A program made the position numbers and the translations under genes. A DNA stretch of 64,000 bases from Pararcticibacter amylolyticus (lineage in GTDB: Bacteria; Bacteroidota; Bacteroidia; Sphingobacteriales; Sphingobacteriaceae): contig NZ_QEAS01000011.1 in the NCBI RefSeq assembly GCF_003130405.1, forward strand, positions 172,024-236,023. Direction: 5' to 3'. The notes under the pieces were generated by a model that ran no database searches, was not told the origin of the DNA, and worked only from the letters and a program-made list of their open reading frames with translations. This document shows positions 45,430 through 49,136 of this stretch, piece after piece (position 1 is the stretch's first letter; each line of letters starts with the position of its first letter).

Positions 45430-47064
45430 TTAGTCTTCTTCGTGAAAAGGATACCTGTAGTCTTTTGCCGGACTAAGAGTTTCTTTGATCGTCCTTGGAG
45501 ACACCCAGCGGAGCAGGTTGATCATAGATCCTGCTTTATCATTCGTGCCTGATCCCCTGGCACCTCCGAATGGTTGCTGGCCTACCACGGCTCCTGTACA
45601 TTTATCGTTAATATAGAAGTTTCCAGCTGAATTTCTTAATGCATAGGTGGCCTTTTCAATGATGTAGCGGTCATTGGCAATAACAGCTCCTGTAAGGGCA
45701 TATATAGATGTCTTGTCTATTGTGCTGAGTATCGTATCAAACTCATTGTCGTCATAAATATATATTGTCAGGAAAGGTCCAAACAACTCTTCACACATGG
45801 TGACATAGTTCGGATCTTTGGTAACGACCACGGTAGGTTCAATGAAATATCCCTTAGACTTATCATAGTTGCCGCCCGCTATCACCTCAACGTTGCTGTC
45901 AGCTTTTGCCGCATCAATCGCTTTAGTGAGCTTTTCGAATGATTTTTCATCAATCACAGCATTTATAAAGTTGCTGAAGTCCTCTACCGGGCCGATCTTG
46001 AAGGTACTGAGCTCTGTTTGCATCATTTCTTTCAACTCGGGCCATATTGATTTTGCAATATAAACCCGGGATGCTGCCGAACATTTTTGTCCCTGGTATT
46101 CAAATGCTCCTCTTATGATTGCTGTATTAGCTACTTTCAGGTCGGCAGACTGGTGTACGAGAATATAATCCTTTCCGCCGGTCTCACCAACAATACGGGG
46201 ATAGCTTTTATATTTGTGTATGTTATTTCCAATGGTTCTCCAGATGTCCTGGAATACCGAGGTTGATCCGGTGAAATGAATGCCGGAGAAATCCGGATGG
46301 TTGAAGATAACTTCTCCCGCATCAGGTCCCGAAACATATACCAGGTTAATGACGCCAGCCGGAAGTCCGGCCTCCATAAACACCTCCATAATCACTCTTG
46401 CTGCATAGATCTGTGCGTTTGATGGTTTCCATACAACAACATTTCCCATTAATGCCGCAGAAGCAGGGAGATTTCCCGAAATTGCGGTAAAGTTGAAAGG
46501 TGTTAAAGCGAAGACAAAACCTTCAAGAGGACGTTGTTCAAGGCGGTTCCAGCTTCCTGAAGGAGAAACAGGCGGTTGTTGTGCATAAATTTCCGCCATG
46601 TATTTTACATTAAACCTGAGGAAGTCGATAAGTTCGCAGGCTGAATCAATTTCCGCCTGGTAAGCGTTCTTAGACTGCCCGATCATGGTTGCTGCATTGA
46701 TCTTATAACGGTAAGGGCCGGCAATCAGATCTGCTGCTTTAAGAAAAATAGCCGCCCTTTGTTCCCATGCCAGCGCTTCCCACGATTCTTTTGCCGACAG
46801 CGCAGCGTCAATCGCCAGCTGTACATGACTTTTATCTCCCTGACTATAGGTAGCCACAACATGTTGCAGATTGTGAGGGGGCCTTATCTCTACTTTTTTA
46901 TCAGTTCTTATTTCCTTTCCCCCGATATACATGGGTATATCTATACGGGATGAATAAGCGGCAGTAATAGCTTCTTTTAATAAGGAGCGTTCCCGGCTTC
47001 CGGGAGCATAAGACAGGACCGGCTCATTTACCGGTGTTGGTATATTAAAAAATCCCTTTGTCAT
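45430..47064 (-). CDS. pruA: L-glutamate gamma-semialdehyde dehydrogenase
   Basis: This enzyme oxidises the product of proline catabolism to glutamate with NAD+. The 544-residue aldehyde dehydrogenase has the usual P5CDH N-terminus with NEPVLSYAPGSRER. The general-base glutamate is in VGETGGKDY (about 290-298), and the catalytic cysteine is in YQGQKCSAASRVY (near 328). No proline dehydrogenase gene is in the window. A -7 box lies about 20 bases upstream of the ATG. Confidence 0.95.
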   Translation of the reverse strand: MTKGFFNIPTPVNEPVLSYAPGSRERSLLKEAITAAYSSRIDIPMYIGGKEIRTDKKVEIRPPHNLQHVVATYSQGDKSHVQLAIDAALSAKESWEALAWEQRAAIFLKAADLIAGPYRYKINAATMIGQSKNAYQAEIDSACELIDFLRFNVKYMAEIYAQQPPVSPSGSWNRLEQRPLEGFVFALTPFNFTAISGNLPASAALMGNVVVWKPSNAQIYAARVIMEVFMEAGLPAGVINLVYVSGPDAGEVIFNHPDFSGIHFTGSTSVFQDIWRTIGNNIHKYKSYPRIVGETGGKDYILVHQSADLKVANTAIIRGAFEYQGQKCSAASRVYIAKSIWPELKEMMQTELSTFKIGPVEDFSNFINAVIDEKSFEKLTKAIDAAKADSNVEVIAGGNYDKSKGYFIEPTVVVTKDPNYVTMCEELFGPFLTIYIYDDNEFDTILSTIDKTSIYALTGAVIANDRYIIEKATYALRNSAGNFYINDKCTGAVVGQQPFGGARGSGTNDKAGSMINLLRWVSPRTIKETLSPAKDYRYPFHEED

Positions 47065-47147: not shown

Positions 47148-47600
47148 TCAAAATACTTCACTTATTGTAAATCCGATCTGGTTAAAGGTCACTGTGTCAC
47201 CACTTTTATGCCCGGCCAATGCCTTTGCCACCGGAGAGGCCGCAGAAATTACATTAAACTGTATCCCATCTGAATATAGCAGGCCCAAGCCTGCAGCGAT
47301 AAAGAAGTTTCCCCTGTCTGTAAACACCAGGCTGCCCGACCCGGCACTGACGGATCTGACTGCAGGATTGATCAAACTCAGAGCGTGTCTGAGTTTTTTC
47401 GCTTCAAATAATTGCCTTTCATTAAGTTGTATTTCCTGCTGCATCATCTCTCTGGCTGTTTCATATTTGTCGCCTGCGCTGCTTTTGGTTTCGTTCCCGG
47501 CAGCTTCTCTGGCTGACAGAATAGCCTGCCCTGCAATCTGTATCCGTTCATCGATATACTCCAGGCACGCCCTATAGAGCTTTTGCTTTATTTCACACAT
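47148..47600 (-). CDS. GreA-like transcription factor homologue
   Basis: The 150-residue protein from the ATG at 47600 has an N-terminal helical hairpin (about 1-75) with an acidic tip GDKYETAR (43-50). Its C-terminal FKBP-like domain contains SPVAKALAGHKSGDTV (122-137). That string closely follows the Gre-factor signature (SPlGrALlGkkvGDeV), and the tip resembles GreA's GDxxENAEY. I infer a Gre-like secondary-channel RNA polymerase factor. This family is often labelled 3-oxoacyl-ACP synthase, which nothing in the sequence supports. The start at 47768 is rejected as non-coding extension. Confidence 0.75.
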   Translation of the reverse strand: MCEIKQKLYRACLEYIDERIQIAGQAILSAREAAGNETKSSAGDKYETAREMMQQEIQLNERQLFEAKKLRHALSLINPAVRSVSAGSGSLVFTDRGNFFIAAGLGLLYSDGIQFNVISAASPVAKALAGHKSGDTVTFNQIGFTISEVF

Positions 47601-47762: not shown

Positions 47763-49136
47763 ATGCAATCATATTCAATTAGTACTACGGGAGAAGCCGT
47801 GTCCGCAGGCACAAGCTCCGGCAGTTATTCCATTCGTATTTCTCTTATAGCCGCTTTGGGTGGTTTTCTTTTTGGTTTCGAAACGGCAGTGATTTCGGGA
47901 GCCGAAAAAACGATACAGGGCTTATGGTCTCTGAACTCTTTCTGGCAGGGCTTTACCGTGGCAGCAAGCTTAATCGGAACCGTCATTGGCTCTGTAGCGG
48001 CTGGCGTTCCGGCTCAAAGGTTTGGCAGAAAGAAGGTGCTGATGCTTATTGCTGTCATGTATCTCCTGTCGGCAATAGGATGTGCTGTTGCTTCCGAATG
48101 GCTTCTTTTTGTTGTTTTCCGGATTGTCGGAGGACTGGCTGTAGGCGCTTCTTCCGTTGTAGGGCCTATGTACATATCGGAAGTCTCGCCTGCTCATCTG
48201 AGAGGGCGGCTGGCCGGTTCCTTTCAGCTTATGATTGTAGGCGGTATCTTCATCGCTTATCTCACGAATTTTTTGTTTGCCGGAATGGGAGAGGAGAGCT
48301 GGCGCTGGATGCTCGGTATTATGGTCATCCCTGCTCTTATTTTTGTTATTCTGCTCAGGTTTATTCCTGAAAGTCCGAGATGGCTGGTTCTGAATAACAG
48401 AGCTGCGGAAGCAGAGCGGATTTTTGCTAAAACAGGAGAAAGCAACGCCGTGGAGCTTGTCCGGCAGGAACAGGAAAGGCAGGGGCACGGGTTAAAGGAA
48501 AGTCTGTTTAACGGGAAATATAACAAACCTATTCTGTATGCAGTGATCCTGGCCATGTTTAATCAGCTATCGGGCATTAATGCCATCCTTTACTATGCTC
48601 CCAGGATATTTGAGTTAGCCGGATTTGAAAAGTCAGAAGCTTATCTTCAACCAGTATATATAGGAGCTGCTAACCTCTTATTTACACTTCTGGCAATGAC
48701 AGTCATCGACAGATTCGGGAGAAAGAAGCTTTTGCTTACCGGCTGTATTGGAATGATTGTGTTTCTGGGCTTAACGGCAAATGCCTTTGGTTCAGATGGC
48801 GGTGCAAACAGCAATGTGCTGATTTACCTGATCGGATTTATTGCTTTTTTTGCGTTTTCACAGGGGGCGGTTATCTGGGTTTTCATTTCCGAGATCTTTC
48901 CTAATTCGGTACGGGCCCAGGGCGGATCGCTGGGAAGTTTTACACACTGGATCATGGCTGCAATTATTTCGTGGACATTTCCTATTATTGTAGAAGGAAG
49001 TCCCGAAGGAGGCTTTTACTCTTTTGTGTTTTATAGCATCATGATGATTGCTTCTTTTGTGTTTATCTGGCGTGTAATGCCTGAAACTAAAGGCAAGTCG
49101 CTGGAACAGATACAAAAGGAACTGGGAATAAAATAA
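47763..49136 (+). CDS. MFS sugar porter (XylE/GalP type)
   Basis: The 457-residue transporter has 12 hydrophobic helices and the sugar-porter motifs. These are RFGRKKVLM after TM2, PESPRWLVL before the central loop, QLSGINAILYYAP in TM7, RFGRKKLLL after TM8 and PETKGKSLEQI at the C-terminus. It should import a hexose or pentose with protons. Glucose from the trehalase 3 kb away is a plausible substrate, but no shared regulation is visible. It is divergent from the GreA-like gene. Confidence 0.94.
   Translation: MQSYSISTTGEAVSAGTSSGSYSIRISLIAALGGFLFGFETAVISGAEKTIQGLWSLNSFWQGFTVAASLIGTVIGSVAAGVPAQRFGRKKVLMLIAVMYLLSAIGCAVASEWLLFVVFRIVGGLAVGASSVVGPMYISEVSPAHLRGRLAGSFQLMIVGGIFIAYLTNFLFAGMGEESWRWMLGIMVIPALIFVILLRFIPESPRWLVLNNRAAEAERIFAKTGESNAVELVRQEQERQGHGLKESLFNGKYNKPILYAVILAMFNQLSGINAILYYAPRIFELAGFEKSEAYLQPVYIGAANLLFTLLAMTVIDRFGRKKLLLTGCIGMIVFLGLTANAFGSDGGANSNVLIYLIGFIAFFAFSQGAVIWVFISEIFPNSVRAQGGSLGSFTHWIMAAIISWTFPIIVEGSPEGGFYSFVFYSIMMIASFVFIWRVMPETKGKSLEQIQKELGIK

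Follow-up and report, generated by a model that had tools for sequence, protein, structure and literature searches.

What does a protein of 150 residues with the marks of a Gre factor do in a cell that already has GreA? This is the question raised by a gene of Pararcticibacter amylolyticus located in the window analysed here, a stretch of 64,000 nucleotides, and for which the first-pass annotation had named a fatty-acid-synthesis label while proposing a factor of the Gre family. Factors that act through the secondary channel govern pausing, fidelity, and initiation; those studied in depth stem for the most part from Proteobacteria, Thermus, and mycobacteria. GreA places its globular domain on the beta-prime rim helices of RNA polymerase and its hairpin into the channel, according to the available text of PMC7527559. 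We argue that the protein would regulate RNA polymerase through the secondary channel, with a Gre fold but as a factor separate from GreA, a reading that draws on a predicted structure and to which we give a probability of roughly 0.7. If true, the presence in Bacteroidota of a further, widespread family with the Gre fold and a conserved tip of its own would provide a new handle on polymerase regulation in this phylum, as well as a natural test of the role of tip chemistry as opposed to that of the fold. Searches of the open-access literature on Gre factors in Bacteroidetes, Bacteroidota, or Flavobacterium, on the label, and on the tip sequence showed no study of this family among the matches listed, with subscription papers lying mostly outside the search.

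The gene and its family

The open reading frame of 150 residues is present as first described, and its translation contains both of the motifs then quoted, GDKYETAR at residues 43-50 and SPVAKALAGHKSGD at residues 122-135 (Table 1). A longer frame of 206 residues, starting from a TTG at 47768, exists as a mechanical alternative only; the ATG start fits the open frames of several relatives (those in genomes G006, G029, G034, G045, and G052), which are no longer than 149-150 codons where the full-length match lies.

Table 1. Coordinates in the window of the gene and of the parts of its product
Feature	Position	Strand	Remarks
CDS, Gre-like protein, 150 aa	47148..47600	minus	ATG start at 47600, stop codon at 47148-47150; short relative frames
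N-terminal antiparallel helical hairpin, predicted, residues 2-75 (helices 2-40 and 45-75)	47376..47597	minus	AlphaFold2
Hairpin tip, residues 37-50, ETKSSAGDKYETAR	47451..47492	minus	Most conserved stretch of the family
C-terminal FKBP-like GreA/GreB-C domain, predicted, residues 89-150	47151..47336	minus	PF01272 and fold
S-x-x-S-P loop, residues 117-131	47208..47252	minus	Profile-aligned to the GreA stretch with S121 and S124

This frame is more than a product of chance, as follows from its homologues at E <= 0.001 in 44 of 60 relative genomes, its own included (43 of the 55 of good quality), from the listed matches, none of which has an internal stop, and from the 14 invariant columns of a 30-row alignment. 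At a larger scale, a phylum-wide profile search was positive in 77 of 395 sampled genomes and, in a species-genome collection, 584 of the 594 motif stretches among the matches listed encode a relative. The best 80 of these species-genome relatives are all titled as Bacteroidota organisms, in a list that is ranked by similarity and says nothing on absence outside this phylum. In a quick tree of 106 family rows (below 62% identity) and five GreA rows, in which 16 of the 108 inner branches are starred, the GreA rows share one branch (length 5.2, support 100), and the branching order within the Gre-like family is mostly left open.

Sequence similarity to known protein families

The sole Pfam family above its cut-off is PF01272 (GreA_GreB C-terminal), which scores 27.4 bits against a cut-off of 26.9 over residues 116-140 only and is also found, at E <= 0.01, in 21 of 30 family members. 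The N-terminal GreA family PF03449 (GreA_GreB_N) is absent at E up to 10, and none of the same 30 members has it at E <= 0.01, whereas the curated cut-offs of NCBIfam are missed altogether, with 21.2 bits vs 139 for the best GreA model and 14.6 vs 188 for GreB. Failing both tests, the protein was rejected as GreA proper; being detectable by Pfam, it does not represent a new kind of protein either. What holds of the Gre-family assignment is the Gre-type predicted fold described below and the PF01272 match, and what does not is membership in GreA or GreB as these are defined by PF03449 and the NCBIfam cut-offs.

Profile-profile comparison with GreA of related genomes gave an E of 9.8e-8 with one template, as opposed to 0.27 with reversed GreA, over the I-S-x-x-S-P stretch, and the confident sequence similarity to GreA is limited to 23-32 C-terminal residues. 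A search of the PDB with the single protein returned no significant match; the corresponding profile search retrieved Gfh1 at E 0.0054 over 27 positions, along with DNA polymerase kappa chains at chance level (E 0.17-0.23).

That the gene might encode all or part of a 3-oxoacyl-ACP synthase is hardly credible. The label named in the first-pass annotation is the one point in its favour; the window itself bears no annotation, and the phage and plasmid collections gave no annotated record that matches. Neither Pfam nor NCBIfam lists a ketoacyl-synthase family up to an E of 10, in agreement with the first-pass view that nothing in the protein fits such an enzyme, and the predicted fold is of the Gre type.

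Predicted fold

The AlphaFold2 model, built from 66 sequences, has a mean pLDDT of 90.3 and a pTM of 0.78, and consists of two long helices joined by a short loop, followed by barrel strands and one helix. Its weakest part is the tip, at residues 31-50 (block means of 78 and 69). The hairpin-FKBP arrangement by which the initial Gre proposal was to be judged is therefore the one predicted, and the full-length structural matches obtained with VIA are to Gre factors and Gfh1 only: of 50 matches listed, eight reach residue 150, all of them GreA, GreB, Gfh1, or a GreA/Gfh1 chimera, with one of these rows, 9a7t, being an integrative model. The best full-length row is 3aoh_X, Gfh1 on RNA polymerase (Z 11.9, rmsd 2.9, 136 aligned), and GreA 1grj gives Z 10.4, rmsd 4.1, and 135 aligned; the match to 2p4v is full-length as well. 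In the other 42 rows, the match does not extend beyond the hairpin region and Z goes as high as 10.4; for long helices a Z below about 13 may mean merely a common arrangement. Since unrelated hairpins reach such values, it is coverage, and not Z alone, that carries the argument for the fold. Foldseek returned four matches at E <= 0.001, all GreA or Gfh1 entries; their TM-scores of only 0.35-0.50, together with an rmsd over 12 for two of the eight full-length VIA rows, those of free Gfh1 (2eul and 2f23), mean that the position of one domain relative to the other is not matched firmly. The positive control, a GreA homologue from a phage contig, gave a poor model (pLDDT 76.7, pTM 0.43) that aligned to 1grj with a Z of 10.9 but an rmsd of 11.0.

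The fold matches bring in two other readings. By analogy with its best full-length match, the protein could be an inhibitor like Gfh1, which would occupy the channel and block nucleotide addition, and both Gfh1 and Rv3788 are precedents of inhibiting Gre paralogues according to PMC4598747. The Z values for Gfh1 and GreA are, however, only about 1.5 apart, and the fold cannot separate an inhibitor from a stimulator, so that we regard this inhibitory role as a doubtful, if tenable, possibility. Alternatively, the Gre fold may have been reused outside the secondary channel, for example in a Rnk-like or barrel-only binder: Rnk is a Gre relative whose hairpin is too short for the active site (PMC4598747, in excerpt), and the confident sequence similarity of our protein is confined to the C-terminal loop. 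We consider this improbable, given that the predicted hairpin is full length, with helices of 39 and 31 residues vs 31 and 26 in the low-confidence GreA control model, and that the most conserved part of the family is the tip and not the barrel.

The hairpin tip

Among the 200 distinct family members collected here, an uneven sample, conservation peaks at the tip, with a mean column entropy of 1.10 bits over residues 37-54, against 2.59 and 2.46 in the helices and 2.06 in the barrel. The core tip motif K-x-S-x-G-D-K-x-E is present in 176 of the 200 and the stricter K-[ST]-[ST]-A-G-D-K in 137; GDxx[DE] occurs in 179, and position 37 is acidic in 185. Even though the tip had been described as acidic in the first-pass annotation, it turns out to be charge-balanced and flanked by lysines: the mean net charge of residues 37-50 is -0.35 in 190 of the 200 members (the 10 gapped ones being left out), with 147 of them at exactly 0, as compared with -2.94 for a stretch of 14 residues at the tip in 17 distinct GreA proteins.

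In GreA, the tip residues D41 and E44 are required for the action on the catalytic Mg2+ (PMC7527559, in the part available). How the tip of the Gre-like protein is laid on that of GreA hence decides whether transcript cleavage would be possible at all, and two registers can be drawn. In the first one, Y46 and R50 fall on the tyrosine and the basic residue of the GreA string N-A-E-Y-x-A-A-[KR], which leaves K39 and A42 at the places of D41 and E44; this is the register picked by loose or global hhalign, with low confidence. In the second one, G-D-x-x-E is superimposed on G-D-x-x-E, and D44 and E47 take the places of the two GreA acids. On the models, the latter agrees better with the helix ends, the second helix spanning residues 45-75 here and 43-68 in the low-confidence GreA control; VIA ranges, for their part, give end residues only. 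A register taken from profile alignment alone, being of low confidence, was not accepted as proof.

The second register would allow the protein to act as a second transcript cleavage factor, with D44 and E47 binding the second Mg2+ and promoting RNA hydrolysis as in GreA or GreB. The frequency of GDxx[DE] in the family speaks for this role, and so, on the models, may the longer second helix, which would bring D44 and E47 nearer to the positions of D41 and E44 than the tyrosine register does. Against it stand the preference of the loose profile alignment for the tyrosine register, the neutral, lysine-flanked tip, and the fact that GreA is already there in every good-quality relative genome, and we judge cleavage to be an unlikely function of this protein. 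Both cleavage and Gfh1-like inhibition are sub-cases that overlap with the main explanation, that is, a Gre-fold regulator in the secondary channel.

The docking loop and the proposed mechanism

The second conserved element is the S-x-x-S-P loop of the barrel, in which, in the same sample, S119 is kept by 197 of the 200 members, S122 by 162, and P123 by all 200. Profile alignments place S119 on S121 of GreA. In the Escherichia coli protein, S121P abolishes the binding to RNA polymerase, and the GreA change S124L leaves binding in place with a strongly reduced antipause activity, as far as the available text of PMC7527559 goes.

The conservation of S119 and P123, the full-length hairpin, and the conserved tip are the grounds on which docking, channel entry, and an effect on the active site different from that of GreA are proposed. 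With its S-x-x-S-P loop, the C-terminal barrel would attach to the secondary-channel rim, as in GreA, and the helical hairpin would reach into the channel, bringing the K-S-S-A-G-D-K-x-E tip close to the active site. From there, the protein would be expected to tune catalysis, pausing, or initiation, or to vie with GreA and DksA for the channel, rather than to serve as the main cleavage factor, because GreA already cleaves in the same cells and because the sequence of the tip, its charge, and probably the placement of its acids differ.

Coexisting factors and copy pattern

Apart from the Gre-like protein, the source genome encodes a canonical GreA, 157 residues long, and all 55 relative genomes of good quality, its own included, contain PF03449, the N-terminal domain of canonical GreA. 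Two matches to PF01272, which we take to be Rnk-like, lie on contig C137 of the source genome with about 450 bases between them, one in an ORF of 134 residues and the other in an open frame of 186 codons. A DksA-like ORF is also present, directly upstream of another one that is presumably lspA-like.

The 95 matches that the phylum sample yielded were all typed by their tip, with a pattern slightly looser than the K-x-S-x-G-D-K-x-E core motif. Exactly one core-tip copy was found in 76 of the 77 positive genomes, in a search that scored at most 10 candidates per genome and may thus miss extra copies. This core-tip copy is the only one in 59 genomes, is accompanied by one copy with a degenerate tip in 16 and by two in one; the remaining genome has a degenerate copy only. 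Likewise, in one of the nearer relatives (G040), the degenerate-tip copy L164 is the sole one seen. In the 17 genomes with extra copies (loci such as L166-L177 and L222-L230), the degenerate-tip ones keep an S-x-x-[SAT]-P loop and, among the 24 of the 200 members outside the core motif, 23 keep S119 (L164 being the exception) and all keep P123, with S122 often replaced by A or T. The copy pattern fits, without amounting to proof, a core regulator plus docking-competent partners or competitors.

A broader picture can be sketched tentatively, and we hold it to be possible rather than probable: many Bacteroidota may have a second Gre-fold layer beside GreA, with one core-tip factor per genome acting at the polymerase active site through a tip chemistry unlike that of GreA and of Gfh1 (the latter compared at the level of the fold), and, in some lineages, degenerate-tip copies that retain the docking loop and might serve as competitors or antagonists.

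Comparison with known systems

With GreA and GreB, the Gre-like protein shares the predicted hairpin-barrel layout, a PF01272 match barely above its cut-off, the I-S-x-x-S-P loop, and the G-D-x-x-E at the tip; contrary to them, it lacks PF03449, lies far below the NCBIfam cut-offs, has a charge-balanced tip, and coexists with GreA. Gfh1 from Thermus is the closest full-length match when compared at the fold level and, together with Rv3788 from Mycobacterium, offers the parallel of a Gre-fold protein living beside GreA. Rnk also combines a GreA/GreB-C domain with a helical hairpin, although the Foldseek match to 3bmb is weak (E 0.055), the source genome has its separate Rnk-like PF01272 matches, and the Rnk hairpin is short in the text seen of PMC4598747, whereas the one predicted here equals or exceeds in length the hairpin of the low-confidence GreA control model. 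The resemblance to DksA and TraR would be one of working mode only, a hairpin inserted in the same channel, since zf-dskA_traR (PF01258) does not show up in the Pfam search even at E values as high as 10 and a separate DksA-like protein exists in the genome. GreA/B-C domains are also described in multidomain conflict proteins, combined with TPR and PIN domains (PMC8195603, in excerpt), a class to which the Gre-like protein, with its 150 residues, does not belong.

Genomic neighbourhood and mobile elements

Downstream of the gene, on the same strand and after a gap of 83 bases, lies an ORF at 45430-47064 that we take, by its type of sequence, to be aldehyde dehydrogenase-like, and upstream lies a divergent ORF at 47763-49136, presumably sugar-transporter-like on the same grounds. 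Neither of these direct neighbours recurs in the other rows shown when 80 loci are compared (two of them without a called family gene), a comparison in which no conserved neighbourhood pointing to transcription was found. The recurrent neighbours are mostly confined to Pedobacter-titled loci, and a function deduced from an operon was ruled out, as the neighbours vary between lineages.

An origin in mobile elements was likewise ruled out from the lack of relatives of the Gre-like protein in plasmid records, in phage records, and in viral contigs, where 51 matches to one peptide pattern included none that encodes a relative. As a separate observation, IMG/VR viral contigs of 60-465 kb carry GreA homologues (L232-L235) with an intact G-D-L-S-E-N-A-E-Y tip.
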